From Lentibacter algarum (GTDB lineage: Bacteria; Pseudomonadota; Alphaproteobacteria; Rhodobacterales; Rhodobacteraceae), in contig NZ_JAHKQI010000005.1 in NCBI RefSeq assembly GCF_018860975.1, forward strand, positions 744,001 through 808,000: 64,000 nucleotides of DNA, read 5' to 3'. The notes under the pieces are model-generated. The model searched no databases. It was not told where the DNA came from and saw only the letters and a program-made list of their open reading frames with translations. Position numbers and translations under genes: made by a program. This document shows positions 19,713 through 34,794 of this stretch, piece after piece. Position 1 is the stretch's first letter; every line of letters begins with the position of its first letter.

Positions 19713-20138
19713 TCAGGCGCGTGTCATTTGCAAACGTATCCCACGGGCGGCAAGGAACACGAGCAACCCGACAGGCCCAATCATGAAGATCAGCGGCAAG
19801 CAAGGTAGAACGATCCAAAAAGCCATGCCCTCTGAGCGCGCCTTGCGGCAGGCCCATGCCCCGATAAACAAATCGAATGCTAGGAAATGAACCCAGCCTG
19901 CCAGCGCTGCCTGTTCATATGAAAACAACTGCATTACCTCGGCCAAGCTGCCAAAGCCGCCGCCACTTTCGGTGGTGGGAAACAAAACCAATGCCAGATA
20001 GCCAATGGAGAGAAGCACTGGCAGGATCAAACCGGAAATCCGGTCAGACCATCGCGGCATGAGAGGCGACAGCAGGAGTATGAGCCATCCTGCCATAGCG
20101 AGAAGGCCAGCGAGTGAGAAGAGAGTTTCAAAAGTCAT
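19713..20138 (-). CDS. ABA4-like (DUF4281) membrane protein
   Basis: A 141-residue protein with four membrane segments. The box GWVHFLAFDLFIGAW near residues 81–95 and IGPVGLLVFL near the end match the ABA4-like family, named after a plant protein needed for neoxanthin synthesis. The bacterial function is unknown. It is divergent from a MarR gene across 84 bp that contains a good dyad, so it is a likely MarR target. Confidence 0.75.
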   Translation of the reverse strand: MTFETLFSLAGLLAMAGWLILLLSPLMPRWSDRISGLILPVLLSIGYLALVLFPTTESGGGFGSLAEVMQLFSYEQAALAGWVHFLAFDLFIGAWACRKARSEGMAFWIVLPCLPLIFMIGPVGLLVFLAARGIRLQMTRA

Positions 20139-20184
20139 GTCGAGTCATCCTTTGGTTAAATAGATGGCGCCAACTATTGAATTA

Positions 20185-20202
20185 TGCTTGCACATGCAAG
20201 CA
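20185..20202. promoter_or_regulatory. probable MarR operator
   Basis: TGCTTGC (20185–20191) and GCAAGCA (20196–20202) form a perfect 7-bp inverted repeat with a 4-bp spacer. It lies between the divergent ABA4-like and MarR genes, 20 bp before the MarR start, the usual place and shape for a MarR dimer site. Confidence 0.55.
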
Positions 20203-20222
20203 CTTTGCAATAAATAGATGAC

Positions 20223-20669
20223 ATGACAGATATGAACACCACAAACGCAATGCGACTTCTTCAAGTCGCTGACGACTTTAGAGCCGGACTAGCAGGTGAG
20301 TTGTCGGCGGTTCACGGCATCTCTGTGAACGAGTTTCTGCTGATGTTGCATCTTGAGCGTTCGGCCGCCAACCGCCTGTCGCGCGTTGAGTTGGCAAAGC
20401 GGATGCATGTGAGCGCCTCCACGATCACCCGCATGGCTGCCCCGATGGAAAAGATCGGGCTTGTTGATCGGGAAGTCGACGCACGCGACGCACGGTTGGT
20501 CTTTGTCGTGGCCACAGCGGCTGGCAAAGCAAAACTTGCAGAAGCACTGGCGACATTCTCCAAACGTGCCGACTATCTTTTCGGCGATCGGTGGGACGAA
20601 AAAGAGATAGACCAATTCGCAGCAATGCTGCGCCGCCTGATCGCGGGAACGGGAGACAGACTGGCCTGA
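20223..20669 (+). CDS. MarR-family transcriptional regulator
   Basis: A 148-residue winged-helix repressor. The recognition region SRVELAKRMHVSASTITRMAAPMEKIGLVDR spans about residues 59–90, followed by the wing DARDARLVFV and a C-terminal dimerisation helix. The ribosome binding site is weak. The palindrome in front of the gene suggests it represses itself and the divergent ABA4-like gene. The ligand is unknown. Confidence 0.88.
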   Translation: MTDMNTTNAMRLLQVADDFRAGLAGELSAVHGISVNEFLLMLHLERSAANRLSRVELAKRMHVSASTITRMAAPMEKIGLVDREVDARDARLVFVVATAAGKAKLAEALATFSKRADYLFGDRWDEKEIDQFAAMLRRLIAGTGDRLA

Positions 20670-20703: not shown

Positions 20704-20822
20704 GTTAACCAAATCTGGCTTTTAAAGGCAGCCAAATCTGTCTGCACCCATTATGCACTGCCATATGCACTGTGGTATGCACGCAAGTCACATGCGAGCC
20801 GCTCGCAAAAACCGGCGTTAAC
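20704..20822 (+). repeat. GTTAAC-bounded element with three 12-bp iterons, copy 1
   Basis: TATGCAC occurs at 20752, 20764 and 20776, an exact 12-bp period. GTTAAC sites lie at 20704–20709 and 20817–20822. The core 20749–20785 is matched at 36 of 37 positions by the reverse complement of 34722–34758. It fills the gap between the MarR gene and the convergent 3-hydroxybutyryl-CoA dehydrogenase gene. Direct repeats one helical turn apart usually bind a protein cooperatively; no known binding site fits. Confidence 0.65.
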
Positions 20823-20836
20823 CCGAGCGTACGTTG

Positions 20837-21712
20837 CTAGCGTGACGGCATCGGAACGTCGCCGCGATAATCGTAAAATCCGCGCTTTACCTTGCGGCCA
20901 AGCCAGCCCGCCGCGACATATTTTGTCAGCAAAGGGCAGGGGCGATATTTGGTATCGCCGAGGCCGTCGTGCAGCACATTCATGATCGCCAAACAGGTGT
21001 CGAGCCCGATGAAGTCAGCAAGCTCAAGCGGCCCCATAGGGTGGTTTGCACCCAGCTTCATCGCGTTGTCGATAGAGGCCACATTGCCGACCCCCTCATA
21101 GAGCGTATAGCAGGCCTCGTTGATCATCGGCACCAGGATGCGATTGACGATAAAGGCCGGAAAATCTTCGGCACTTGCGGCAGTTTTCCCAAGTGTTTCA
21201 ACGACTTTCAGGCAGCTTTGGTAGGTTTCATCATCTGTCGCAATACCGCGGATAAGCTCGACAAGCTTCATAAGCGGCACCGGATTCATGAAGTGAAACC
21301 CCATAAACTTTTCGGGCCTGTCCGTGCGCGACGCCAAGCGCGTGATCGAGATAGACGAGGTGTTTGTGGTCACGATTGTATGCTCGGGCAGATGCGGAAT
21401 GAGCCCTTCGATGATCTTGTTTTTAATCTCTTCATTTTCGGTCGCAGACTCGATCACCAAGTCGCTTTGCCCAAGTGCTGCAACATCAAGCGAAGTGCCG
21501 ATCCGCGCCAATGCCGCAGCCATGTCACTCTCTTCGATCTGCCCCTTGGAAACCTGCCGCAGCATGTTCTTTTCGATACGGGCAACCGCAGCGTTAAGAG
21601 CTTCTTCACTAAGATCGTTGACGATCACATCATAGCCGGCCAGTGACATAACATGCGCAATTCCGTTGCCCATCTGTCCCGCGCCAATAACACCAACTTT
21701 TTGAATTTCCAT
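20837..21712 (-). CDS. 3-hydroxybutyryl-CoA dehydrogenase
   Basis: NAD(P)-dependent oxidoreductase of the 3-hydroxyacyl-CoA dehydrogenase family, interconverting 3-hydroxybutyryl-CoA and acetoacetyl-CoA. The 291-residue protein has the nucleotide-binding turn VGVIGAGQMGNGIA (residues 7–20), the catalytic His in GFHFMNPVPLMKLVE near 140, and the C-terminal helical domain with NHPMGPLELADFIGLD. It lacks a hydratase domain, so it is the stand-alone type used in butyrate/PHB or ethylmalonyl-CoA metabolism. Transcribed alone. Confidence 0.93.
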   Translation of the reverse strand: MEIQKVGVIGAGQMGNGIAHVMSLAGYDVIVNDLSEEALNAAVARIEKNMLRQVSKGQIEESDMAAALARIGTSLDVAALGQSDLVIESATENEEIKNKIIEGLIPHLPEHTIVTTNTSSISITRLASRTDRPEKFMGFHFMNPVPLMKLVELIRGIATDDETYQSCLKVVETLGKTAASAEDFPAFIVNRILVPMINEACYTLYEGVGNVASIDNAMKLGANHPMGPLELADFIGLDTCLAIMNVLHDGLGDTKYRPCPLLTKYVAAGWLGRKVKRGFYDYRGDVPMPSR

Positions 21713-21883
21713 CTACCGCTCCTCAACCTCAAGCAAAGCATACGCGCCGAGGCTTGGACGCCGCAAGCGACTTTTCCGCGGGGTAGCTCCGTGCCAAATT
21801 TCGTTAAGACTTTATGTGTTAGCGAAATCTCAATTTGTCCGCCGCATTCTGGTTTTGGGTGAACTAAAAATGTTGTGGGAATT

Positions 21884-22720
21884 ATGGCCTATGAAAAACT
21901 GGGGGGCCGCCCCCTTGAATACTATCCATGCACTTATGGCGCGTCGCGGCTGATGTTTCGCGGCCCCAAGCGTGACCCTGAAGAGGCGTTCATCGCCTTT
22001 CTGGGCAGCACTGAAACCTACGGCAAGTTTGTCGCAAGGCCTTTTGTCGATCAGCTGGAAGATATGCTTGATGTCCAATGCCTGAACTTGGGCGTTCCAA
22101 ATGCCGGGCTCGACTCGTTTTTGAACGACGCTACGACGCTCGATATAGCAGCGCAGGCTTCTTTGACAGTCGTGCAAATCATGGGAGCACAGACGATATC
22201 GAACCGGTTTTACTCCGTGCATCCGCGTCGCAACGACAGGTTTCTTGGGGCGTCCAAACACTTGAGCGCTGTGTATCAAGACGTTGATTTTACCGAATTT
22301 CACTTTACCAATCATATGCTTGCGCACCTCGCAGGCTTGGGTATGGAGCGGTTTACACTTGTCCTGCATGAGTTGCAGGATGCATGGGTCGCACGAACAA
22401 CCTTACTGCTGGATCGCATCTCGGGGACCAAGGTTCTGCTCTGGTTTGCCGATCACGGGCCGGAGGAAAAGATCGGGATCAACCATGTGACCAGCAGCCC
22501 CTTTGGCGTGACGCAAAAGATGCTTGATCAGGTCAAGATGGGCGCTTCCGAAACAGTGATTGTCAAAGCCAGCTCCGCCGCTCTTGCGCGCGGTAACGAG
22601 GGTATGGTTTTCGCGCCGCTCGAAGTGCAAGCGACCTTGCAGTTGCTAGGGCCGGCTGCTCACACGGAAGCAGCATTTGCCTTGCAGGAAAGGCTACCGG
22701 CTCATCTAGGCGCGCGCTAA
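21884..22720 (+). CDS. DUF6473-family protein
   Basis: A 278-residue soluble protein that I match from memory to a Rhodobacteraceae family, DUF6473. Diagnostic stretches are MAYEKLGGRPLEYYPC at the start, FLGSTETYGKFV near residue 43, LNLGVPNAGLDSFLND, and YSVHPRRNDRFL. The GSTE and NAG blocks recall an SGNH-like fold, but this is only a resemblance. The ATG at 21884 is preferred; GTG at 21875 would add three residues. The 3' end overlaps the convergent esterase gene by four bases. Function unknown. Confidence 0.72.
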   Translation: MAYEKLGGRPLEYYPCTYGASRLMFRGPKRDPEEAFIAFLGSTETYGKFVARPFVDQLEDMLDVQCLNLGVPNAGLDSFLNDATTLDIAAQASLTVVQIMGAQTISNRFYSVHPRRNDRFLGASKHLSAVYQDVDFTEFHFTNHMLAHLAGLGMERFTLVLHELQDAWVARTTLLLDRISGTKVLLWFADHGPEEKIGINHVTSSPFGVTQKMLDQVKMGASETVIVKASSAALARGNEGMVFAPLEVQATLQLLGPAAHTEAAFALQERLPAHLGAR

Positions 22721-23487
22721 GCAGCGTTCAGCCAGACCTCAAGCGCAGCAACAAAGGCACGCGGATTTTCTGCATGCAACCAGTGGCCTGCATCCGGTAT
22801 CTTGGCAAAACGGGCCGCCGGAAACAGCGGCTTGATCACAGAGCGGTGCTCGGGCTGCACATAGTCAGAGTTGGCGCCTGACAAAAACAGCACTGGCCCT
22901 GCAAACGCGGGGTCACCGCTGCAATCAGGGAAGGCCAGCACATTCGGCATTTCCTTAGCGAGTGCCTCAAGGTTGAGCCGCCATTTTCGGGCTTTCACAT
23001 CAAGCGATTGGGTGAAAAACGCCGCCAAACTGGCTTCGCTGACCAGCGGCTCAAGCGCGCGCAAGGCGTCTTGCCGAGTTTCGATTGCGTCCAGATCAAC
23101 CGCCAGCATGGCGTCAATGTTGCTTTGCTGGGAATGTCCGTAAGGCACGGGCGCAATGTCTGCAACTGTCAGCCGCCCAACACATTCAGGGTATTTGAGC
23201 GCCAGAACCATAACCGCTTTCCCGCCCATCGAGTGGCCAAGCACATGCGCATTGCCGTCAAGTTCGGCAGTAATCACCTCAGCAAGGTCGCTGGCCATTG
23301 CCTCATAGGTGTGGGTGTCTGACCAAGGGGAAGATCCGTGGTTGCGCATGTCAACCACGATCACCTCGCGCTCGCTGGAAAGGCGCTTTGCGATAACACC
23401 CCAGTTACGCGCCGAGCCAAAAAGCCCATGTGCGATCAAAAGAGGTGGTTTCTCGGTCTTGGTTCCGTGGCGGATAAAGTTTAGCAT
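22717..23487 (-). CDS. alpha/beta-hydrolase (YbfF-like esterase)
   Basis: A 256-residue alpha/beta-hydrolase. The oxyanion turn is HGLFGSARNW near residues 19–28, the nucleophile elbow is GHSMGG near 94–99, and the catalytic His is in DAGHWLH near 233–239. The length and HGLFGS…DMRNHGSS pattern fit the YbfF esterase group. Substrate unknown. AGGGA lies six bases before the ATG. Its start codon abuts the first possible ATG of the divergent gene. Confidence 0.88.
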   Translation of the reverse strand: MLNFIRHGTKTEKPPLLIAHGLFGSARNWGVIAKRLSSEREVIVVDMRNHGSSPWSDTHTYEAMASDLAEVITAELDGNAHVLGHSMGGKAVMVLALKYPECVGRLTVADIAPVPYGHSQQSNIDAMLAVDLDAIETRQDALRALEPLVSEASLAAFFTQSLDVKARKWRLNLEALAKEMPNVLAFPDCSGDPAFAGPVLFLSGANSDYVQPEHRSVIKPLFPAARFAKIPDAGHWLHAENPRAFVAALEVWLNAA

Positions 23488-23544
23488 ATGTCCCTGTTAG
23501 CGCGTCAACGCGGCAAAACAAAGCAAGATATGAGGCCCCGCAGA

Positions 23545-23919
23545 GTGAGCGACCCGCAAGAAATCAAACAAATCGAAGCCCGCCTCTGTGCGCTGATGAA
23601 CGAGCGCTTGGGTCTGTCGCAACCAAGCTTGGAAAAGGCTGTGCGGCGTGCGGGCAGGCGGCTGCCTTCCTCACAGAAAAAACGAGCGCAAGTGATCATT
23701 GAAGCACTCGCCAAGGCTGACCATCCGGCGTTGTTTGCGCAGCTGTCCGAAACAAACTTGTACCGCGCCGACGTCCGCCTCACCGAGTATCTGGAAACGA
23801 TTGATCGCAAGAAATTGCGAGTCGATAGTGCGCTGCGGCTCGTCGCCAGCCTGTCGTTCAACGTGCTGCTGCTTGCGGCGATCGTAATCACGGTGTTGCA
23901 TCTACGCGGATTCATTTAG
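23545..23919 (+). CDS. conserved hypothetical protein with C-terminal membrane anchor
   Basis: A 124-residue protein. The soluble part is helical and basic (RRAGRRLPSSQKKRAQ), and a single membrane segment ends the chain (LSFNVLLLAAIVITVLHLRGFI from about residue 100). GTG at 23545 gives MSDPQEIKQIEARL and has GAGG nine bases before it. An in-frame ATG at 23488 directly touches the divergent esterase start and has no binding site, so I judge it less likely. I recall similar tail-anchored proteins in related bacteria but know no function. Confidence 0.65.
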   Translation: MSDPQEIKQIEARLCALMNERLGLSQPSLEKAVRRAGRRLPSSQKKRAQVIIEALAKADHPALFAQLSETNLYRADVRLTEYLETIDRKKLRVDSALRLVASLSFNVLLLAAIVITVLHLRGFI

Positions 23920-23997
23920 GGCCTCTGCTTCACCGTCCTGAAAAGACTGTGTAACAAAGGCCCTGAAATGTTGGTCGTCGGGGTTTCTGTGCAGCGC

Positions 23998-25404
23998 TTA
24001 GCGCACGAACGCATCCGAGAAGCCAGCCCGACGCGCTTTTGACAAAGCACCGTTCAGCTGGTTGCCAGCAAACGGCCCTGCCATGACAACACGGTAGCTT
24101 TTGCCCGAGCGCTTGAGTGTGCCCATACGCACAGGCAGGCCTGCTGCTTGTAGCTTCGACGCCGCTCGTTTGGCGTTTCCGGCTTGGCTGTAAGTGCCGA
24201 CCTGAACAAAGCGCCCGGCTGTCGTGGCGGGCTGCGTCTTTGCAGGTTTGGGCTCGTTGCGCGTAGAAGCGATAAGGCCCATCGCAGCGTCCTGATCACG
24301 CATACTTGTGTATGGATAACGCAGTTTCGGGAACAAGTTGTTGACCACACGACCAGAGCTGCGCAGGTAAAGTTTGCGCGGCACCGTGCGTGTCCAGACC
24401 AGATCAGACTGGCGGATGCCGTTCACTGTCATATTGGCGCGCTTGGTGTTCAAACGATCGTCGGTCCAAGCCGGACGGTAGCCTTTAGGCACTTTCTGGG
24501 TCACCTTGGACGCTTGCTCATTGTCATACACATGCCGTGGCACTACGCGTGTCGTGCCACTGGCGTTGATCTGACCGTCGCTGCCGCGTTTGATGATTCT
24601 CGGTTGTTTCTGGGCCTGCTGCTGCACGACAACACGGCGCTGAGGTGCGGGCTGACGCACAACAACTTTAGGCTGACGAGCAACCGCCACGGGCGCGACA
24701 GGCGCGGTGGTGCGACGCACCTGAACACGTGCCTGCGCTTGCGCTTGCTTCTGTGATCCGCAGCGCACACCGCTGCCGCGGCCAGCATATTGCGCACTGA
24801 CACCGGTAAAGTTTGTGCAGGACGTGCGGCGCGTGGCGACTTGCGATTGCACCCGCTGAGGCGCGACTTTCGCCGCAGGAGCGACCCGAACACTCGGTTG
24901 GATACGCTGCACCTGTTGCACCTGTTGTGGCGCTCGCTTCACAGGTTGAGGCACAATAACACGCGGAGCTTTTGCCACACGTGGCATAGGCTTCGGGGCT
25001 ATTTTTACTGGCTTGGGCTGCACGACTGGCTTCGGCTTGGGCGCTACTTTAGGGGCGGCTTTCTTAACCGGCGTTTGCGCTGGCAGCACCTTGGGAACAA
25101 TCTGCACCGGCTTTTTGGCAGGGGCCGCGGCAACAACAGCAGGCCGTTGTCCCGCTCCAAAGGTCGGCTTCTGGCCGCAAACAACTTGCCGCTTGCGCGT
25201 CACATGCGGCACCCACTGCACGAGGCCATCAATGCCAGCGCGAATGTAGGAACAGCCCCGGCTGTCCACATACTGCTTGCCTTTGTAGCTGGCAGGCGGA
25301 AACTCGGCTGGCTCACCGGCATTGCGAAGCGTCTTGCCCTGAGCTGCGCTCAGACCGAAAGATGAAAGGATAATGGTAACTGCGAGTATTGATTTCAGGT
25401 TCAT
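23998..25404 (-). CDS. exported SPOR-domain protein
   Basis: A 468-residue envelope protein. An N-terminal signal peptide (MNLKSILAVTIILSSFGLSA) is followed by a short Cys-containing region, a long low-complexity linker rich in Pro, Lys, Gln, Val and Ala (about residues 80–290), and a C-terminal SPOR domain from about 395 (GRFVQVGTYSQAGNAKRAAS…). SPOR domains bind peptidoglycan stripped of stem peptides at division sites. The ATG at 25404 is the natural start of the signal peptide. Probably a cell-envelope or division factor. Confidence 0.85.
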   Translation of the reverse strand: MNLKSILAVTIILSSFGLSAAQGKTLRNAGEPAEFPPASYKGKQYVDSRGCSYIRAGIDGLVQWVPHVTRKRQVVCGQKPTFGAGQRPAVVAAAPAKKPVQIVPKVLPAQTPVKKAAPKVAPKPKPVVQPKPVKIAPKPMPRVAKAPRVIVPQPVKRAPQQVQQVQRIQPSVRVAPAAKVAPQRVQSQVATRRTSCTNFTGVSAQYAGRGSGVRCGSQKQAQAQARVQVRRTTAPVAPVAVARQPKVVVRQPAPQRRVVVQQQAQKQPRIIKRGSDGQINASGTTRVVPRHVYDNEQASKVTQKVPKGYRPAWTDDRLNTKRANMTVNGIRQSDLVWTRTVPRKLYLRSSGRVVNNLFPKLRYPYTSMRDQDAAMGLIASTRNEPKPAKTQPATTAGRFVQVGTYSQAGNAKRAASKLQAAGLPVRMGTLKRSGKSYRVVMAGPFAGNQLNGALSKARRAGFSDAFVR

Positions 25405-25481
25405 TTCTTGCCCCCACAAGTGTTGCGTGACATTGCCTGATCAGCGCAGGCGAGTCTAGCAGGCTGCTGCGTTTTTTTCGG

Positions 25482-26114
25482 CTATTTCGTGCCAAACATC
25501 CGGTCGCCGGCGTCGCCAAGGCCGGGAACGATGTAGCCTTGTTCGTTCAGTTTTGCGTCAAGCGAGGCTGTGGTGATAGCGACATCGGGGTGGGCCTCTT
25601 TCATCCGCGCAACACCTTCAGGCGCTGCCAAAAGGCACAAAAAGCGCAGGTTTTTAGCGCCTGCCTGCTTGAGCAGGTCAATCGCAGCTGCGCTTGAGTT
25701 GCCTGTTGCCAGCATCGGATCAACAACGACAACTTCGCGCTCCGCGAGGTTTTCGGGTGCTTTGAAATAATACTGCACAGGCAAGAGCGTTTCCTCGTCA
25801 CGGTAAAGGCCAACGAAGCCTACCCGCGCCGAGGGCGTCAAGCTGAGCAGAGGCTCAAGCATTCCGTTGCCGGCCCGCAAGATGGAGATCAACGCCAGCT
25901 TTTTGCCTGCCAAAACCGGCGAATCGATGGTTTCGAGCGGCGTCTCGATGCTGCGGTTTTCCAAGGGCAAATCACGCGTGGCTTCATAAGCAAGCAACTG
26001 GGTAATCTCGCCCAGCAATTGCCGGAACTGAGCTGTCGGTGTTGCTTTGTCGCGCATTAGCGTGAGTTTGTGTTGCACGAGCGGGTGGTCAACGACGGTC
26101 AGGTGCTGGGTCAT
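25482..26114 (-). CDS. upp: uracil phosphoribosyltransferase
   Basis: Converts uracil and PRPP to UMP. The 210-residue length and boxes [30 protein letters not shown] and the PRPP loop [17 protein letters not shown] are diagnostic. I start at ATG 26114 ([17 protein letters not shown]), the family start; further in-frame starts upstream would run toward the deoB stop. It is the last gene of the nucleoside operon and captures uracil released by DeoA. Confidence 0.95.
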
Positions 26115-26145
26115 GGAATCTCTTTTCATTTTGGCAGGCTTGAGC

Positions 26146-27354
26146 TCACAGGAAACTGACGCCATCGCCACGGGTTTTCAAGCCCAGATGCGCCGCAATG
26201 CTCGCCGCGACGTCCTTGAAGGCAATGTGCCCGATCTCGGAATGCCCCGCCCCAGCCACCAGAACGGGGACCCGCTCGCGGGTGTGGTCGGTGCCGGCCC
26301 ATGTCGGATCATTGCCGTGATCAGCGGTAAGGATAAGGACATCACCCTCGCGTAAAACAGGCAGCATCTGTCCTAACTCGCGGTCAAACCACTCAAGCGC
26401 GCGGGCGTAGCCGCTTACGTCGCGACGGTGCCCGTACTGGGTGTCAAACTCGACAAAATTCGCAAATGTCAGTGAGCCTTCCGGCGCATTTTTCAGTTGG
26501 TTGTGCAGATCAACCATCAGATCAATATCTGGGCCTTTTACATAACTGTCGATACCGCGTAGCGAGAAAATATCCCCGATCTTACCGATCGCATGCACAT
26601 GCCCGCCATTTTCAGAAACCCAGTCGCAGAGGGTCGGGCTCGGCGGCTCGATCGCAAAGTCTTTGCGGTTGGCGGTACGCTCGAACGCACCTTCGCTTCC
26701 CAAGAATGGCCGTGCTATGACCCGCCCGACTTTGAGCTTGTGCAAATGCGGAGCGAGAGCGCGGCAAAGCTCAAGCAGCCGCTCAAGGCCGAAGCTTTCT
26801 TCATGCGCCGCGATCTGGAAAACACTGTCGGCGGAAGTATAGCAAATAGGCCAGCCCGAGCGCATATGCTCGGCGCCCAAGTCGTCGATAACCTGTGTGC
26901 CCGAGGCATGCGCGTTGCACAAAACCCCGTCAACGCCTGCAAGCCGCTTCACCAGTTCGGTGATCTCATCTGGAAAGGCCGGTTGCGTGTCGGGAAAGTA
27001 GTGCCAGTCCCACGGAACCGGCACGCCAGCAAGCTCCCAATGGCCCGAAGGGGTATCTTTGCCAAGACTCACTTCTGTTGCAGCGGCCCAGCGCCCGTTA
27101 TGCGGCGCGGTGCTCACGGGCAGGGCAATGCCAGACGCCAGCTTCACCGCCTCGATCAGGCCCAATCCGGCCAGGTTTGGAACCCGCAAAGGCCCTGTGC
27201 GGCCTTCCTCTGCGTGCCCTTTAGCGCAGGCCTCAATGATATGCCCTAGCGTGTTGGCGCCAGTGTCAGGAAGCGTGCCATTGAAGAAGTCGGCTGCGTC
27301 GGGTGCTCCGCCACAACCGACGGAATCAAGCACCACCAGAAAGGCACGGCTCAT
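26146..27354 (-). CDS. deoB: phosphopentomutase
   Basis: Interconverts ribose/deoxyribose 1-phosphate and 5-phosphate. The 402-residue alkaline-phosphatase-superfamily protein begins [20 protein letters not shown], where the metal Asp and surrounding residues are typical, and has [21 protein letters not shown] and [13 protein letters not shown] for the remaining metal ligands. It overlaps the deoA stop by ATGA. It processes the sugar phosphate produced by DeoA. Confidence 0.95.
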
Positions 27355-28658
27355 GCTTCGATCCTTTCGTAAACGAGCGGGGGCAGTTCCGGTTTTTTGC
27401 CGATCGTTACGCTCGCCAGAACCTCGGCCTCGGCTTTTGTGGCATGGCCCGCGCGGCTAGCGTGAATGCGCGCGATTGTGTCGCCTTTCTTGACGCTTGT
27501 GCCAAGCGGGAGCAAGTCAGACAGGCCAACCGCCGGATCAACCACGTCAGATTCGACTTGTCGACCACCGCCGAGCGCGACCACTGCGAGCCCGAGCCGC
27601 TCGCCCGCATAAGCACTGATAAAGCCTGCTTCGGGCGCGCGCACTTCACGGATATTGTTGGCCTCCGGTAGGAAACGCTGCCAGCTGTCAACGAATTGCA
27701 CAGGGCCCCCTTGCGCATGCACCATCCGCCCGAAGGCCTCGGCGGCTTTCCCGTTCTGCACGGCGCTGATGATGGCTGCGGCGCCGGATTGCGGCGTGTC
27801 ACTTAGCCCGTTATCGGCAAGCAAAGTGCCGCCCAAAGCTGCACTCACTTCGAGCAGTTTCGAGCTTTGAGGCGATTGCAAAGCGCGCATGACCTCGGCA
27901 ATTTCGAGCGCGTTGCCAAGCGAAGGCACCAATGGTTGGCTCATATCGGTGATCAGTGCAGTGGTCTTGCAACCTGCGGCATTGGCTGTGTTGACCAGCG
28001 ATCGCGCCAGCGCGCGCGCGTCATCGAGAGTCTTCATAAACGCACCAGAGCCGGTTTTGACATCCAGAACCAGCCCTTCAAGCCCGACCGCAAGCTTTTT
28101 GGAGAGGATTGATGCGGTGATCAGATCAAGGCTTTCGACTGTCGCCGTCACGTCGCGAATAGCATAGAGGCGCTTGTCGGCAGGAGCGATGTTGGCTGAA
28201 GCCGAGATAATTGCCAGATGCGCTTGCTCAACCACACGGCGGAACTGTGCCTCGTCAAGATCGGTCTTGAAACCGGGGATCGCGTCAAGCTTGTCTAGCG
28301 TGCCGCCCGTATGCCCGAGTCCGCGCCCCGAAACCATCGGAACCGCCGCGCCGCATGCAGCCAGAGCGGGGGCTAAAAGAAGCGATACACAATCGCCTAT
28401 TCCACCTGTTGAGTGTTTGTCGAGCACAGGACGATCAAGCTGCCAGTCAAGCACATCACCGCTGTCACGCATCGCCAGCGTGAGAGCAACACGCTGGTCG
28501 CGAGACAGCCCTTTGAGCAGCGCGCCCATAGCAAATGCGCCGGCTTGCGCATCGCTCACAGAGTGGTCTGCAAGCCCCTCGGCGAAAGCCTCAAACGCTG
28601 CCAGACTGGCGTTGTCTCCGTCGCGCAGGGCCGCCAGAAAGGCACGGGTGTCGCTCAT
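27351..28658 (-). CDS. deoA: thymidine phosphorylase
   Basis: Phosphorolysis of thymidine to thymine and deoxyribose 1-phosphate. The 435-residue enzyme has the signature DKHSTGGIGDCVSLLLAP near residues 82–99, SGRGLGHTGGTLDKLD, and the C-terminal domain ending with lysine-rich KKGDTIARIHA. The ATG at 28658 overlaps the cdd stop (ATGA). Second gene of the cdd–deoA–deoB–upp operon. Confidence 0.95.
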   Translation of the reverse strand: MSDTRAFLAALRDGDNASLAAFEAFAEGLADHSVSDAQAGAFAMGALLKGLSRDQRVALTLAMRDSGDVLDWQLDRPVLDKHSTGGIGDCVSLLLAPALAACGAAVPMVSGRGLGHTGGTLDKLDAIPGFKTDLDEAQFRRVVEQAHLAIISASANIAPADKRLYAIRDVTATVESLDLITASILSKKLAVGLEGLVLDVKTGSGAFMKTLDDARALARSLVNTANAAGCKTTALITDMSQPLVPSLGNALEIAEVMRALQSPQSSKLLEVSAALGGTLLADNGLSDTPQSGAAAIISAVQNGKAAEAFGRMVHAQGGPVQFVDSWQRFLPEANNIREVRAPEAGFISAYAGERLGLAVVALGGGRQVESDVVDPAVGLSDLLPLGTSVKKGDTIARIHASRAGHATKAEAEVLASVTIGKKPELPPLVYERIEA

Positions 28659-29047
28659 GAGTTGTCCATGTGGTCCTGTGAGAACGCGCCTGGCAAAAGC
28701 TCGGCGAGGCACATCACAAGTTCGCCGCCATCTGTGGTCGCCATCGTCACTTTTACTTCGCCCGCGCCAAACTCAGCCAGCTTCTGGCGGCACCCGCCAC
28801 ACGGCGTTACAGGCGTAGGGCTGTCAGCAATCACATAGGCTTCGGTGATTATGCTATCGCCAGCCGCGATCATTGCTGCAATCGCGCCCGCTTCGGCGCA
28901 TGTGCCTTCGGGGTAGGCAACATTCTCAACGTTGCAGCCTGTATAAACTGCGCCTGAGGCGCTGCGTAAAGCGGCTCCGACTTTAAAATTTGAATATGGT
29001 GCATAGGCGTTTTCACGGACGTTACTAGCAGCTTTGGCGAGGGGCAT
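28655..29047 (-). CDS. cdd: cytidine deaminase
   Basis: Deaminates cytidine and deoxycytidine to uridine forms. The 130-residue tetrameric type has the zinc site in TCAEAGAIAAM (Cys and catalytic Glu) and PCGGCRQ (two Cys). The ATG at 29047 has AAGGAG seven bases upstream; an in-frame extension to 29104 lacks family similarity. First gene of the salvage operon. It is divergent from maeB, with a strong palindrome in the shared gap. Confidence 0.95.
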   Translation of the reverse strand: MPLAKAASNVRENAYAPYSNFKVGAALRSASGAVYTGCNVENVAYPEGTCAEAGAIAAMIAAGDSIITEAYVIADSPTPVTPCGGCRQKLAEFGAGEVKVTMATTDGGELVMCLAELLPGAFSQDHMDNS

Positions 29048-29143
29048 TACGCACTCCTTTATAATTTCCTCACCAGTTTGCGAGAGACAGGTTATAGATT
29101 GCAAGAGGCAGTGCCGAGTTTCGCTGCTTTTAATTGAGCGGAT

Positions 29144-29165
29144 AATAGTTTAACGCTAAACTATT
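29144..29165. promoter_or_regulatory. operator-like palindrome between cdd and maeB
   Basis: AATAGTTTA (29144–29152) and TAAACTATT (29157–29165) form a perfect 9-bp dyad with the spacer ACGC. It lies 96 bp from the cdd start and 33 bp from the maeB start. It overlaps where the maeB promoter should be. The TTTAACGCTAAA centre recalls LacI-type operators, but the regulator is not known. Confidence 0.55.
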
Positions 29166-29197
29166 GGGTTTGGACCGCACAGATGCGAGGGCGCGAT

Positions 29198-31477
29198 ATG
29201 GATGAAGATAGAAAACAATCTGCCCGCGAGGCGGCGCTTGCCTATCATGAGTTTCCCACTCCGGGAAAGCTTGAGGTGCGCCCGACAAAGCCAATGGCCA
29301 ACGGATGGGACCTCGCGCGTGCCTATTCACCGGGGGTTGCCGAGGCTTGCGTCGAAATCGCCGCCAACCCGGCTGAAGCCAGCCGCTATACTGCCCGCGG
29401 CAACCTTGTCGCGGTCGTCACCAACGGAACCGCTGTGTTGGGCCTTGGTAACATCGGCGCGCTGGCCTCAAAACCGGTGATGGAAGGCAAGGCTGTCTTA
29501 TTCAAGAAGTTCGCTGGGATTGACTGTTTTGACATCGAAGTTGATGAATCCGACCCTGAAAAGCTGGCCGATATTGTCTGCGCGCTGGAACCGAGCTTCG
29601 GGGCCATCAACCTTGAGGATATCAAAGCACCTGACTGTTTTGTTGTCGAAAAAATCTGCCGTGAGCGCATGGGCATTCCTGTGTTTCACGATGACCAGCA
29701 CGGAACTGCGATCGTGGTTGGCGCGGCGGCGACCAATGCGCTGCACGTTGTCGGCAAGGCATTTGAAGACATCAAGATTGTCAGCACCGGCGGCGGCGCG
29801 GCGGGAATTGCTTGCCTCAACATGCTGCTCAAGCTTGGTGTGAAGCGCGAGAATGTCTGGCTTTGTGACGTGCATGGGCTTGTTTATGAAGGCCGTGAAG
29901 AAGACATGAACCCGCAAAAAGCGGCCTTCGCCCAGAAGAGCGATAAGCGCACACTGGCAGAAGTGATCGACAGTGCGGACCTGTTCCTAGGTCTTTCCGG
30001 CCCTAAGGTTCTTAGTGCTGAGCTGGTTGCCAAAATGAGCAAACGTCCGATCATCTTTGCACTGGCGAACCCGACGCCGGAGATCATGCCAGATGAGGTT
30101 CTGGCCGTAGCACCTGATGCCGTCATGGCGACTGGTCGCAGCGATTTTCCCAATCAAGTCAACAACGTGCTATGCTTCCCCTTCATTTTCCGTGGTGCGC
30201 TTGATGTCGGCGCAACCGAGATCAACGATGAGATGCAGATCGCCTGCGTTGAGGGCATTGCCGAGTTGGCCCGTGCCACAACAAGTGCCGAAGCCGCGGC
30301 GGCTTATAAGGGAGAGCAGCTGACTTTCGGGGCGCAGTATCTGATCCCGAAACCTTTCGACCCTCGCCTTTCTGCAATTGTCAGTTCGGCCGTGGCCAAA
30401 GCGGCGATGGAGACAGGTGTCGCGACGCGTCCGCTTGCAGACATTGAAGGCTACAAAGAGAAGCTTAATCAATCAGTTTTCAAATCCGCGCTGTTGATGC
30501 GCCCCGTCTTTGAGACGGCCAAAAAGGCCACCCGCAGGATCATTTTTGCCGAGGGGGAAGACGAACGCGTATTGCGTGCGACGCAGGCGATTTTGCAGGA
30601 AACAGTCGAAAGGCCGATCCTTATCGGGCGTCCGGAAGTGATTGAACAACGCTGCGAACGGTTCGGAATCACTATCAAAGCCGACCGAGACTATGAGCTG
30701 ATCAACCCAGAAAATGACCCGAGATATCGCGAGTATTGGGAGAGTTATCATGGGCTTATGTCCCGGAAAGGCGTGACCCCTGACTTGGCCCGCGCGATCA
30801 TGCGCACCAACACCACAGCCATCGCGGCAACCGCGGTGCATCTTGGCCATGCCGACAGTATGATATGCGGCACATTTGGCGAGTTTCGCTGGCATTTGAA
30901 CTATGTGGAGCAGGTTTTAGGCTGCCAGGAACGGTACGCTCATGGGGCTTTGTCGCTGATGATCCTGGAAGACGGCCCACTGTTTATTGCCGACACCCAT
31001 GTGCATCAGCTGCCCACGCCCGAACAGATTGCCGAGGCAGCTATTGGCGCTGCGCGGCACGCTGCGCGTTTTGGGGTTGAACCAAAGGTTGCGCTTTGCT
31101 CGCAGTCGCAGTTTGGCAACCAGGCGGAAGGATCGGGCAAACGCATTCGGGCTGCTATTGCGCTGCTGGATGCGGGCAAACAGGACTTTGCCTATGAAGG
31201 AGAGATGAATGTCGACGCCGCACTTGACGCGGGTTTGCGCGCGCGGTTGATGCCTGACAATCGCCTGCAAGGCTCTGCAAACATTCTCATTTTTGGCCAC
31301 GCTGATGCGGCATCAACAGCGCGCAACATTCTCAAAATGAAAGGCGGCGGGCTTGAAGTTGGCCCGATTTTGATGGGCATGGGCAACAAGGCGCATGTGG
31401 TGACTCAGGGCATAACGGCGCGCGGTTTGCTCAATATGGCGGCAATTGCTGGCACTCCTGTCGAGGATTACGGTTAA
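29198..31477 (+). CDS. maeB: NADP-dependent malic enzyme with C-terminal phosphotransacetylase-like domain
   Basis: Oxidative decarboxylation of malate to pyruvate with NADP. The 759-residue protein has the N-terminal malic domain (YSPGVAEAC near residue 37; [18 protein letters not shown] near 160), an NAD-binding turn ([13 protein letters not shown] near 193), and from about residue 430 a phosphotransacetylase-like domain ([14 protein letters not shown]). That fused domain is usually not catalytic and acts in allosteric control by acetyl-CoA. The ATG at 29198 has GAGG eight bases upstream; an ATG at 29183 is possible. Monocistronic, with a stem-loop after it. Confidence 0.93.
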
Positions 31478-31515
31478 TGATTTGCCTTGCGGTTTACTGA
31501 CGCAAGGCAAATCAT
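31477..31515. terminator. 15-bp perfect stem-loop after maeB
   Basis: A perfect 15-bp inverted repeat (31477–31491 with 31501–31515; core TTTGCCTTGCG / CGCAAGGCAAA) with a 9-nt loop begins at the last base of the maeB stop codon. No T tract follows, so it is either a weak terminator, a 3'-end stabiliser or a protein site. Confidence 0.5.
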
Positions 31516-31572
31516 CAGGCTTGATAAACGGCAGTTCCGGAGCTTAACCATAGGTCAACGGAGGAGAGACAC

Positions 31573-33468
31573 ATGAGCTATAAAGAGATGTATGCCGGTT
31601 GGAAGGCCGACCCTGAGTCTTATTGGATGCAAGCAGCCGAGGCGATTGACTGGGACAAAAAGCCGTCCAAGGCGTTGTTTGACAAGGGTGAAAATCTCTT
31701 TGAGTGGTTCTCGGACGGGATGTGCAACACCTGCTGGAACGCCGTTGACCGGCACGTTGACGCGGGGCGCGGGGCACAAACGGCGATCATTTATGATAGC
31801 CCGATCACCCACACCAAACGCGAAATCACTTATGCGGAACTCAAAGATCGCGTCGCTAGCCTTGCCGGAGCGTTGCGCGCCAAGGGCGTGGAAAAAGGCG
31901 ACCGTGTGATCATTTACATGCCGATGGTGCCGGAAGCGCTTGAGGCGATGCTGGCCTGCGCGCGCATTGGTGCCGTGCACTCAGTCGTCTTTGGCGGATT
32001 TGCGGCCAACGAGCTTGCAGTGCGCATTGACGATTGCAAGCCCAAGGCCATCATCGCCGCCTCTTGCGGCCTCGAGCCGGGGCGCGTTGTGCACTATAAG
32101 CCGCTGCTTGACGGAGCTGTTGAGCTGGCCGCTCATAAGCCGGAGTTCACGGTTATTTTTCAGCGAGAACAAGAGGTTGCAAAGCTAACTGAAGGGCGTG
32201 ATTTTGATTGGCATGGTTTTCAGCACGGTGTTGAACCTGCGGATTGCTTGCCAGTTGAAGGCAATCACCCTGCCTATATCCTCTACACATCCGGCACTAC
32301 GGGCGCGCCAAAAGGGGTGATCAGGCACACGGGCGGTCAGCTTGTGGCGCTCAACTGGACGATGAAAAACATCTACAATGTTGACCCTGGTGACGTCTTC
32401 TGGGCGGCCTCTGATGTGGGCTGGGTCGTGGGGCATAGCTACATTTGTTATGCGCCGCTCATTCACGGCAACACAACGGTTGTGTTTGAGGGCAAACCCG
32501 TTGGCACGCCGGACGCGGGCACATTCTGGCGGGTGATTTCAGAACACAAAGTTAAGAGCTTTTTCACCGCGCCGACGGCGTTTCGTGCTGTCAAACGTGA
32601 AGACCCGAAGGGGGAGCTTGTTGGGAAGTATGACCTGAGCTGTCTTGGACAGGTTTACCTCGCAGGTGAGCGCGCTGATCCTGATACGATCATCTGGGCG
32701 CAGGAGAAGCTCGGCGTGCCGGTGATCGATCATTGGTGGCAAACCGAGACAGGCTGGGCGATTGCCGCCAACCCCGCCGGTGTTGAATTGTTGGATGTCA
32801 AACTTGGCTCTCCTTCGGTTCCGATGCCGGGTTATGATGTGACAATTCTTGACGACGGCGGGCATGAACTGCCTGCGGGTGAGCTTGGAGCCATTGCGGT
32901 TAAGCTTCCGTTACCGCCCGGGACGCTGCCGAATTTGTGGAAGGCTGAAGATCGCTTCCAGAAGAGCTATCTTAACGCCTTTCCCGGGTACTACGAAACC
33001 GGTGATGCCGGGATGATTGATAAGGACGGGTATCTTTACATCATGGCGCGCACAGATGATGTGATCAACGTCGCTGGCCACCGTCTGAGCACGGGCGGCA
33101 TGGAAGAAGTTCTGGCCGGCCATGAGGATGTTGCCGAATGCGCGGTGATCGGGGTTGCCGACCCGCTCAAGGGGCAAGTTCCTGTTGGATTTCTGTGCCT
33201 TAACGCAGGATGCAGTAAGCCGCATGAGGAGGTTGTCAAAGAGGTTGTCGGCCTTGTGCGCAGCAAGATTGGCCCTGTGGCGGCCTTCAAGCTGGCGGCT
33301 GTGGTTGAACGGTTGCCGAAGACGCGCTCGGGCAAAATTTTGCGCGGGACGATGGTGTCGATTGCCGATAGCACGGCTTGGAAAATGCCGGCGACGATTG
33401 ATGATCCGGTGATCCTCGACGAGATCACAGTGGCGCTGAAAAGCCTTGGGTTCGCAGAGGACGCATGA
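31573..33468 (+). CDS. prpE: propionyl-CoA synthetase
   Basis: Acyl-adenylate-forming ligase that activates propionate (or acetate) to the CoA thioester. The 631 residues open with MSYKEMYAGWKADPESYW and GMCNTCWNAVDRHVD, typical of PrpE. The AMP-binding box YILYTSGTTGAPKGV lies near 236–250, YETGDAG near 475, and the C-terminal Lys in KTRSGKILRG, the site of regulatory acetylation in this family, near 592. A GGAGGAG-type site precedes the ATG. Its stop overlaps the HMG-CoA reductase start. No methylcitrate or methylmalonyl genes are nearby. Confidence 0.9.
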   Translation: MSYKEMYAGWKADPESYWMQAAEAIDWDKKPSKALFDKGENLFEWFSDGMCNTCWNAVDRHVDAGRGAQTAIIYDSPITHTKREITYAELKDRVASLAGALRAKGVEKGDRVIIYMPMVPEALEAMLACARIGAVHSVVFGGFAANELAVRIDDCKPKAIIAASCGLEPGRVVHYKPLLDGAVELAAHKPEFTVIFQREQEVAKLTEGRDFDWHGFQHGVEPADCLPVEGNHPAYILYTSGTTGAPKGVIRHTGGQLVALNWTMKNIYNVDPGDVFWAASDVGWVVGHSYICYAPLIHGNTTVVFEGKPVGTPDAGTFWRVISEHKVKSFFTAPTAFRAVKREDPKGELVGKYDLSCLGQVYLAGERADPDTIIWAQEKLGVPVIDHWWQTETGWAIAANPAGVELLDVKLGSPSVPMPGYDVTILDDGGHELPAGELGAIAVKLPLPPGTLPNLWKAEDRFQKSYLNAFPGYYETGDAGMIDKDGYLYIMARTDDVINVAGHRLSTGGMEEVLAGHEDVAECAVIGVADPLKGQVPVGFLCLNAGCSKPHEEVVKEVVGLVRSKIGPVAAFKLAAVVERLPKTRSGKILRGTMVSIADSTAWKMPATIDDPVILDEITVALKSLGFAEDA

Positions 33469-34700
33469 GCACATCGAGGATATCGGGTTTTCACAAGCTA
33501 AGCCGTGGCGGGCGTTTGCAGGAGCTTGTAAAACAAGGACTTTTAAGCGCGGCGGATGCGGCCGAGATTAACCTTGAGGCAGCTGTTTCGGGGGAGCTGG
33601 CAGAGCATCTCAGCGAGAACGTGATCGGGGTTATGGCCGTGCCTTTGGGCGTGGCGACGAACCTGATTGTTGACGGCGATGACGTGCTGGTTCCGATGGC
33701 GACCGAGGAGAGCTCGGTGATTGCTGCGGTGGGCAACGGGGCACTGGCGTGTCGGACGACGGGGGGCGTTGTGACCGAGGCTGACGCGCCTTGCATGATC
33801 GCTCAGGTGCAGGTGACGGGCCTTGCTGACTTGGAAGCTGCGGCGGAAGCCGTGCGAGCAAAAAGTGCCGAAATATCAGCGCTTTGTGATGGTTGTGACC
33901 CGATGCTGGTGAAGCTCGGCGGCGGGTTTCGCGAGCTTGAGGTGCGTATTGCCGGGCCGTTTCTGGTCATTCATCTGATCGTAGATGTGCGTGATGCTAT
34001 GGGCGCGAATGCGGTGAACACGATGGCAGAGGCCTTGGCGCCGAAGCTTGAAGAGTGGACCGGTGGCAAGGTCGGATTGCGGATATTGAGCAACCTTGCT
34101 GACCGCCGATTGGTGCGTGCGAGGGCAGTTTGGGCGGCGGATGAGATAGGCGCTGAAACCGTGCAAGGCATTGTTTCGGCTTATGAATTTGCCAAGCATG
34201 ACCCTTACCGCGCCGCGACGCACAACAAGGGGATCATGAACGGGGTTTCGGCTGTGGCTTTGGCGACGGGCAATGACAGCCGCGCGCTTGAGGCGGGGGC
34301 GCATGCCTATGCTGCCAAGGGGGGCTACGGGCCGTTAACGACCTATGGTGTGACGGCGGAAGGTGACCTTTGGGGCGAGATCGAAATGCCGGTGCCTATG
34401 GGCATTGTTGGTGGGGCTACCAAGGTGCATCCCATGGCGCAAAAAGCATTGAGAATCATGGGGGTAGATGGAGCTGACCGGCTTGCACGGGTGACGGCAT
34501 CGGTGGGTTTGATCCAGAATTTCTCGGCGCTTAGAGCGCTGGCGACAGAGGGCATTCAGCGCGGCCATATGGGCCTGCATGCGCGCAATGTGGCGATCGC
34601 TGCGGGGGCCACTGGTGAGGATGTCGAGCGGATTGCCAAAGCGATGATCGACGGGCTTGGTGTGCGCGAAGATGTGGCGCGTGATTTGTTGAAAAGTTAA
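33465..34700 (+). CDS. mvaA: class II hydroxymethylglutaryl-CoA reductase
   Basis: Interconverts HMG-CoA and mevalonate. The 411-residue size without a membrane anchor is the bacterial class II form. Catalytic residues are visible: Glu in TEESSVIAA near 80, Asp in VDVRDAMGANAVNT near 178, Lys in HNKGIMNG near 260, and the C-terminal His in GHMGLHARN near 370. It is coupled to prpE by ATGA. Because ispH shows a MEP pathway, this enzyme is more likely to work in mevalonate breakdown or another HMG-CoA conversion than in isoprenoid synthesis; that is inference. Third codon positions are strikingly G-rich. Confidence 0.9.
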   Translation: MSTSRISGFHKLSRGGRLQELVKQGLLSAADAAEINLEAAVSGELAEHLSENVIGVMAVPLGVATNLIVDGDDVLVPMATEESSVIAAVGNGALACRTTGGVVTEADAPCMIAQVQVTGLADLEAAAEAVRAKSAEISALCDGCDPMLVKLGGGFRELEVRIAGPFLVIHLIVDVRDAMGANAVNTMAEALAPKLEEWTGGKVGLRILSNLADRRLVRARAVWAADEIGAETVQGIVSAYEFAKHDPYRAATHNKGIMNGVSAVALATGNDSRALEAGAHAYAAKGGYGPLTTYGVTAEGDLWGEIEMPVPMGIVGGATKVHPMAQKALRIMGVDGADRLARVTASVGLIQNFSALRALATEGIQRGHMGLHARNVAIAAGATGEDVERIAKAMIDGLGVREDVARDLLKS

Positions 34701-34794
34701 CCGCTAAAACGGGCTGCACAATGCGTGCATACCACAGTGCATATAGCAGTGCATAATGCGTGCTGACAGTTTTGAGAGCGGCGAAAAGGTTAAC
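34696..34794 (-). repeat. GTTAAC-bounded element with three 12-bp iterons, copy 2 (inverted)
   Basis: On the minus strand TATGCAC occurs three times at 12-bp steps (plus-strand GTGCATA at 34725, 34737 and 34749). GTTAAC lies at 34696–34701, overlapping the HMG-CoA reductase stop, and at 34789–34794. The core 34722–34758 matches copy 1 at 36 of 37 positions in opposite orientation, while spacers outside the core differ in length and sequence. Conservation of the core and the two GTTAAC sites only argues for selected binding sites. Confidence 0.65.

Follow-up and report, generated by a model that had tools for sequence, protein, structure and literature searches.

The 64,000-nucleotide stretch of the Lentibacter algarum genome analysed here (the window; contig NZ_JAHKQI010000005.1, positions 744,001 to 808,000) contains two copies of an intergenic element in which three head-to-tail TATGCAC iterons are flanked by the palindrome GTTAAC. 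The two copies belong to a dispersed set of tens of sites that are oriented with respect to replication and that, in related species, often occupy the same places in the same direction under a different iteron spelling. We read them as chromosome-wide, replication-oriented protein-binding sites with an architectural or fork-oriented role, a statement that, taken whole, is given an even chance of being right. The fuller proposal falls just short of that: an undescribed Roseobacteraceae-wide system of replication-oriented nucleoprotein sites, with three or four iterons one turn apart, largely inherited in position and direction, whose word would be rewritten everywhere at once alongside a putative fast-evolving binder.

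The original prediction described three TATGCAC words at exact 12-bp steps at 20752-20782 on the forward strand (copy 1) and at 34725-34755 on the reverse strand (copy 2). This arrangement was confirmed; the two triples are the sole matches in the window even when three mismatches are allowed, and 100 shuffles of the window gave an expectation of 0. The 37-nt cores do differ at one base, as had been stated, and copies 1 and 2 pair over 53 nt at 92%. Alignment with the other copies of the genome delimits a conserved core at 20733-20795 (+) in copy 1, consisting of CAAATCTGTCTGCACCCAT, the three iterons and GCAAGTCACATGC, and at 34712-34774 (-) in copy 2. The GTTAAC words, to which no strand was assigned, lie in copy 1 at 20704-20709 (left, -48 from the first iteron) and 20817-20822 (right, with its TTAAC at +42 from the third iteron), and in copy 2 at 34789-34794 (upstream in element orientation, -39 from the first iteron) and 34696-34701 (downstream, TTAAC at +31 from the third iteron). 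Three of the predicted spacer lengths (34, 33 and 23 nt) were correct, but the left spacer of copy 1 measures 42 nt and not 40 nt.

By its DeoB, the window is closest among named relatives to an uncultured Lentibacter (76%). The original prediction proposed a genome-wide search for copy number, orientation and conservation in relatives. In the genome of L. algarum (G000; 11 contigs, 3.65 Mb) this search returned 54 exact copies of the triple-TATGCAC pattern (28 forward, 26 reverse; 0 for a reversed-pattern control), replication polarity and many positions shared with relatives. A sequence-only profile of the aligned core gave at least 74 matches in this genome at E values of 1.6e-4 or less and 77 up to an E value of 1; 150 of 986 first-look candidates were scored, so that 74 is possibly a lower bound. 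Copy 1 was matched at 66.1 bits (contig C8:764734-764794) and copy 2 at 68.5 bits (C8:778713-778773). The inverted orientation of the window copies is thus real, but the inverted pair is not a unit, as these are two of 54 exact, or about 74 profile, copies. A mobile repeat had been pictured as hundreds of randomly oriented copies conserved over the whole element; what was found are tens of copies in non-random orientation, of which only the core and the phase of its flanks are kept.

In the alignment of L. algarum copies the conserved core spans about 60 bp and so is wider than the iterons, and conservation of columns outside it is weak. The 54 rows of this alignment, from which the profile was built, leave out two copies (L041, with an extra unit, and L050, with a masked N) and include two copies from the congener G003 (L031 and L032). 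The core begins with AAAACTGT, followed by CAGC, CTGC or GCAT and then by ACGCAT; next come the three iterons with variable spacer triplets and a right block that takes a few alternative forms. As a separate observation, GANTC, the word methylated by CcrM, occurs in 18 of 54 L. algarum cores, 29 of 42 cores of the relative G001 and 0 of 24 Thalassovita cores.

The sites are polar with respect to replication. In L. algarum the iteron strand shows negative local guanine-cytosine (GC) skew in 48 of 52 cases (p = 1e-10), which marks it as the lagging strand; the two window copies were judged separately. The same is seen at 39 of 42 sites in G001, a relative with a complete genome, at 23 of 29 in G003 and at 21 of 24 matches in Thalassovita. 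In G295 and G414, which represent two other genera, 9 of 9 examined loci per genome have ATGCAC on the leading strand; as GTGCACAACCC is the leading-strand form in G001, the polarity agrees. Among the matches listed for G414, 15 of 17 agree with the skew. Along the G001 chromosome, site polarity flips near 1.45 and 2.98 Mb (both change points fitted by eye), close to the GC-skew flips that mark the inferred origin and terminus, and 38 of 43 sites agree with this division; the three sites that misfit by local skew sit where its size is 0.015 or less. In addition, from one L. algarum copy to the next the orientation stays the same in 29 of 46 cases (p = 0.04 by permutation). Both window copies follow the rule, with a skew of about -0.04 around copy 1 (+ strand), a weak signal next to an SMC gene of unusual composition, and of +0.11 to +0.23 around copy 2 (- strand). 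The two are mutually inverted because the leading strand, as given by GC skew, switches between them. This switch from negative to positive skew, at about 21000-28000 of the window, resembles an origin or the end of an inversion; its G001 counterpart (about 2.44-2.46 Mb) lies far from the skew-inferred origin.

The sites are also placed non-randomly with respect to genes, which were called with a simple hexamer model trained on the window and on the open reading frames of an uncultured Lentibacter region (L100), not with a published gene finder. In L. algarum 51 of the 54 copies lie outside called genes, in 24 convergent, 20 tandem and 7 divergent gaps. Convergent gaps are enriched (24/51 versus 25/186 background gaps, p = 7e-9) and divergent gaps depleted (7/51 versus 57/186, p = 0.009). 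In G001, for which 42 of 43 sites were analysed (the site at 3201128 was left out), 15 of 38 sites are convergent versus 53 of 299 background gaps (p = 0.002) and 3 of 38 are divergent versus 79 of 299; 4 further sites overlap called genes. Orientation relative to transcription in tandem gaps is balanced in L. algarum (10 and 10) and is 7 and 13 in G001. Site counts per eighth of the G001 chromosome (7, 5, 7, 4, 3, 4, 7 and 6) reveal no concentration at the terminus, and spacing was not clearly regular there (coefficient of variation 0.79 versus 0.97 for random sites, p = 0.07).

Outside the core, GTTAAC is held at preferred helical positions. In the window and twenty samples of 20 kb, the word occurs 7.3 times per kb up to 110 bp from an element, compared with 0.32 times in the remaining intergenic DNA and 0.09 times inside genes. 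The presence of GTTAAC on both sides, which was originally described for the window copies and is true of them, is found within 80 bp of the core at only 27 of the 54 copies; 16 have it on the right only, 9 on the left only and 2 on neither side. The downstream words of the window copies differ by 11 bp, approximately one helical turn, that of copy 2 being the closer. Consistent with this, downstream TTAAC offsets from the third iteron in L. algarum fall at 31-34 (15 words), 41-45 (34), 53 (1), 64-65 (3) and 73-75 (3), such that 56 of 64 offsets over the 54 copies are on the ladder and 8 elsewhere. In G001 they fall at 33 (2), 42-44 (29), 53 (1), 64 (4) and 75 (1), with 3 of 40 elsewhere. Both sets fit a 10.6-bp ladder of nearly equal phase, with the main offset at 42-43 (within which copy 1 falls) in spite of the different iterons, and the L. 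algarum ladder persists when the main peak is removed (p = 0.0055). Such a ladder is the trace expected if a complex on the DNA contacts a single face of the helix. Upstream, 23 of 36 L. algarum copies have GTTAAC at a distance of 12-15 or 23-24 bp from the core.

Comparison with relatives separates the places of the sites, which are largely inherited, from their spelling, which is not. In a profile scan of 147 genomes (36 candidates scored per genome, with stricter filters than in the L. algarum search) the core matched only L. algarum itself and G003. The iteron word is TATGCAC at 12-bp steps in L. algarum, GTGCACGGGTT-like at 11-bp steps in G001, G004, G005 and G006 (43, 52, 53 and 55 forward-strand matches, respectively), ATGCACA at 11 bp in G295 and G414, ATGCACAACTG in other genera and ACCGACGTAAT in Thalassovita; steps of 11 bp were likewise seen in G003, G001, G295 and Thalassovita. 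G005 and G006 are represented by totals plus a few loci, and for some genomes the TGCAC, ATGCACA and GTGCACGGGTT positions are those among the matches listed.

When loci were compared by flanking genes, using 55 of the approximately 74 L. algarum element loci, 19 of 30 loci in G003 (13 on both flanks) and 19 of 42 in G001 (12 on both flanks) matched an element locus of L. algarum. Orientation at these shared loci is the same in 19 of 19 cases for G003 and 18 of 19 for G001, the sole exception being a one-flank match to copy 1 in a different gap. It is also the same at 8 of 8 loci checked across five congeners, a set that includes 3 of the 19 G001 loci and leaves out a G005 locus (L352, one flank, matching copy 1 in a different gap), a second L090 match and the G295 and G414 rows. 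Strands and rows for the orientation comparisons and the G003 skew count were entered manually. In G003 and in the uncultured Lentibacter L100 both window copies are matched by sites that occupy the corresponding gaps, point the same way and have the lineage-specific core. At one gap next to the start of an ABC-transporter gene (L025), four species keep the flanks and nearly the same length (91, 91, 88 and 88 bp) around a core that differs.

Core identity between loci within a species is 0.80, 0.85 and 0.75. Between species it is no higher at orthologous than at non-orthologous loci, at 0.58 and 0.58 for G001 (12 of the 19 matched loci) and 0.72 and 0.72 for G003 (7 of 19), with 0.51 for shuffled sequence; the flanks keep some orthology signal (0.57 versus 0.52 and 0.63 versus 0.53). 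The cores of a species thus turn over in concert, and on sequence comparison the sites appear as a dispersed, largely position-inherited set in concerted evolution.

Beyond these genomes, triples of TGCAC at 11-12-bp steps were found in 89 of 394 genomes of the family (one per genus), many as single matches or simple repeats, and 20 of the 394 carry at least 10 matches over both strands, a GTGCAC-type match, being palindromic, counting once on each; a reversed control gave at most 2 per genome. The ACCGACGTAAT word was suggested by one Thalassovita taeanensis locus and then found 24 times genome-wide (control 0); these matches include five overlapping pairs, giving about 19 distinct sites, and several appear in or at genes. 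Of six candidate iterons at 11-bp steps seen in 80 deoB regions, it is the one that was searched for genome-wide. Candidate 11-bp triples in other Roseobacteraceae include GGAACC (L164:11220-11251) and ATGCAG/ATACAC (L169:16607). Two sets of cross-genus matches were not counted as orthology: 4 of 18 loci in G295 and G414 matched L. algarum loci on one flank each and in mixed orientation, and 5 of 24 Thalassovita loci had translated matches; in the two that were checked by coordinates (L420 and L432) the matching gene stands on the opposite flank.

The L. algarum core was not found in plasmids. Four Sulfitobacter plasmids each have one GTGCAC-type site adjacent to a RidA gene, and one Bacillus plasmid gave a short, 28-base match to a searched site. 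The Sulfitobacter sites (L443-L446, 6001-6081) have TTAA flanks and are mostly conserved, except that one of the four has a different word in one spacer. A phage origin was considered and rejected: three viral contigs carry the exact pattern, but it is surrounded there by other repeats and, by eye, has no core flanks, and one exact GTGCAC-type word gave no viral matches.

Taken together, head-to-tail iterons, a flanking palindrome in phase with them, an invariant direction and the sharing of positions fit an array of protein that would have to face the replication fork in one direction, and the depletion of divergent and enrichment of convergent gaps fit a complex that spares promoters or acts where transcription converges. 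Copy number, location, polarity, phasing, shared positions and concerted turnover are computed results; that protein binds the sites, that it is the same protein at all of them, and its role, we infer. One sequence-specific DNA-binding protein would load in head-to-tail fashion onto the three or four iterons, which are spaced by roughly a helical turn; in this genus there would be a second contact (through a domain, a partner or a dimer) on the downstream GTTAAC, in helical phase with the iterons. Some 40-75 such sites per chromosome are spread over both replichores, nearly all in one direction relative to the fork. Their role is probably architectural, the specific role being the weakest step of the argument; they may organise or mark the chromosome, or serve a fork-oriented process, for example where convergent transcription meets the fork, rather than regulate particular genes. 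Many sites retain their place and orientation as species diverge, while some are gained or lost. The change of word in all copies could arise, most simply, as the specificity of the binder drifts and the sites follow, by copying of cores between loci, or by both; the presence of three or four iterons would buffer a change in specificity. Protein-binding iterons or an organisation site, as originally suggested, fit the phasing along the helix, the polarity relative to replication, the location between genes and the partial conservation of positions; a partition site, suggested alongside, is not supported in the ParABS sense, since 0 of 54 cores have a parS-type palindrome.

Several observations count against this reading. 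Replication direction was proxied by GC skew. The genes whose starts face sites are ordinary housekeeping genes by appearance, with no common theme by eye, and no binder was found; no partner gene was evident in the first residues of genes starting towards sites, which were read by eye and not subjected to a family search. The congener G002 has few TGCAC sites (4 forward-strand matches), and 23 of 42 G001 sites have no match in the L. algarum locus set. Moreover, no such site lies in the copy-1 gap of G001, G002, G004, G005 or G006 (the nearest in G001 is about 1.4 kb away) or in the copy-2 gap of G001, G002, G004 or G006; the flanks of these site-free gaps are too diverged to show the target duplication that an insertion sequence or MITE would leave, and many other sites are shared. 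At the family level, 305 of 394 genomes have no TGCAC triples; the system is either patchy or spelled differently in those genomes, and other iteron words may be used where TGCAC is absent. The upstream arm lacks a clean 10.6-bp ladder, with GTTAA peaks at -33, -38, -43 and -48 that are 5 bp apart, partly because this arm often contains GTTAAGTTAA. Downstream TTAAC is found at 0 of 24 Thalassovita matches and is scattered and rare in G295. Finally, left and right core variants are linked at scattered loci (13/14 versus 7/40, p = 8e-7), which suggests some copying of cores between loci; this looks like a process that selection on binding sites alone does not predict.

The last point bears on the alternative that survives best, namely that the sites are short intergenic repeats, REPIN-like but not RAYT-driven, inherited vertically, homogenised by gene conversion or by single-strand copying at the fork, and oriented by their mode of entry without any function. 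Linked core variants, the homogeneity of cores within a species and their lack of any signal specific to the locus, the lagging-strand bias, the avoidance of divergent gaps and the presence or absence of sites among congeners, both window copies included, would all be expected of such a population. However, GTTAAC outside the core is held in helical phase, orientation is kept at 37 of 38 shared loci and one gap has near-constant length in four species. In addition, no covarying structure was detected (0 of 9 predicted pairs changed on both sides in 19 sequences), no terminal inverted repeats were apparent by eye, and a Y1 transposase (PF01797) was not found in 24 of the 26 genomes scanned, L. 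algarum included. We consider a functionless repeat population unlikely. REPINs are tens of short extragenic, vertically inherited copies of species-specific sequence, and in these respects the present sites are alike; they differ in having three direct iterons, replication polarity, a phased GTTAAC and no covarying hairpin unit. RAYT-driven REPs were rejected because of the absence of the transposase, the only matches being in G013 and in G003, where the match is partial (positions 2-45 of 121) and the only one among the carriers scanned.

Two other alternatives keep a bound protein and give it another task, and both are improbable. Roadblocks that act as transcription insulators or terminators between convergent genes would account for the convergent enrichment, but orientation tracks replication, the tandem contexts being split 10 and 10 or 7 and 13 with respect to transcription; moreover, neither window copy, the only two scanned, has an intrinsic terminator (a G+C-rich stem with a T run) by pattern. 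Even less probable are polar fork barriers or pause sites with a logic like that of Tus/Ter, permissive for forks from the origin: polarity, the iterated site and convergent placement would suit them, whereas the lack of concentration of G001 sites near the terminus does not. The DnaA box is the 9-mer TTATNCACA, or TTWTNCACA, oriC of Escherichia coli has ordered low-affinity arrays, and the recognition domain of DnaA is highly conserved. That the sites titrate DnaA is highly improbable: ATGCACA, the 11-bp iteron of G295 and G414, resembles the 3' part of TTATNCACA, and its head-to-tail boxes the arrays at oriC, but the full TTWTNCACA occurs in 2 of 54 L. algarum, 0 of 42 G001, 0 of 24 Thalassovita, 0 of 10 G295 and 0 of 9 G414 cores, and, unlike that conserved domain, the iteron changes between congeners.

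Among the closest known systems are the KOPS, or FtsK-orienting polar sequences. The motif GGGNAGGG is described as switching polarity at dif in most replicons examined, Paracoccus and Sinorhizobium being among those named (PMC13342612). Like the present sites, KOPS are dispersed and polar with respect to replication, and switch near origin and terminus. They differ in form and density, the KOPS 8-mer occurring some 14-18 times per 100 kb (both strands, in samples) and the mostly intergenic, approximately 60-bp iteron cores about 1-2 times, and the present sites are not enriched at the G001 terminus. KOPS identity was rejected, as GGGNAGGG is a separate motif here. It is leading-strand biased in samples of G000, G001 and G414 (42:15, 40:14 and 53:16), to which GC skew alone could contribute, and it is found in none of the 139 cores (0 of 54 L. 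algarum, 42 G001, 24 Thalassovita, 10 G295 and 9 G414).

A chromosomal parS was rejected on similar grounds: the GTTNCACGTGNAAC-type palindrome is absent from all 139 cores of the five genomes, and sites are spread across the whole G001 chromosome. The centromeres parC and tubC consist of head-to-tail repeats at 11-12 bp, one per replicon; plasmid iteron arrays and centromeres of the ParR/TubR type share that arrangement with the present sites but not their number, which is 40-75 per chromosome. The subset of neighbouring genes that were annotated or read included no rep or par gene. The matS/MatP, Noc and SlmA systems have tens of chromosomal sites for one architectural protein, and their sites are palindromic and regionally restricted. 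The present sites are alike in number and in their putative single reader, and differ in being direct-repeat, polar and rewritten between congeners.

Other identities were also rejected. A structured RNA is contradicted by the lack of covariation in the 19 sequences and of any Rfam match in the window at gathering score, and a tRNA-linked attachment site by the lack of a tRNA in the window. Most L. algarum copies have an open frame through the core, read as Y-A-L-x-Y-A, and three copies (L016, L021 and L037) have in-frame stops within the iterons; a small coding repeat was rejected because the 11-bp steps in relatives break the frame. No description of these sites was found in the literature searched, which included few subscription papers. 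None of the known families tested fits the sites; polar motifs that are dispersed, and families of architectural sites, are in themselves already known.

In the window, copy 1 lies between two genes that converge on it, one for a MarR-family regulator (20223-20669, +) and one for 3-hydroxybutyryl-CoA dehydrogenase (20837-21712, -). Copy 2 is abutted by the 3' end of a gene for a degradative HMG-CoA reductase (33465-34700, +), whose stop codon overlaps the downstream GTTAAC. The gene for the chromosome segregation protein SMC (15137-18592, +; TIGR02168, 831.7 bits) lies about 2 kb upstream of copy 1 and has a strong A-over-T skew along its length. A small open reading frame and the MarR gene separate a LysR gene from copy 1 (19713-20669), and in L100 and G003 LysR is followed directly by a terminator-like hairpin and then by the element. 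Elsewhere, an imperfect 34-nt inverted repeat (74%, 9-nt gap) at 31458-31534, at the end of a malic-enzyme gene and before a propionate-CoA ligase-like gene, is possibly a terminator.

Some 50 dispersed sites that largely keep their place and polarity while their spelling changes everywhere between congeners amount to a natural experiment in protein-DNA co-evolution. One short DNA could be used to fish out the binder, with the congeneric spellings as built-in specificity controls. If the role is indeed architectural, the sites would represent a polar chromosome-organising system in a large, mostly marine bacterial family.

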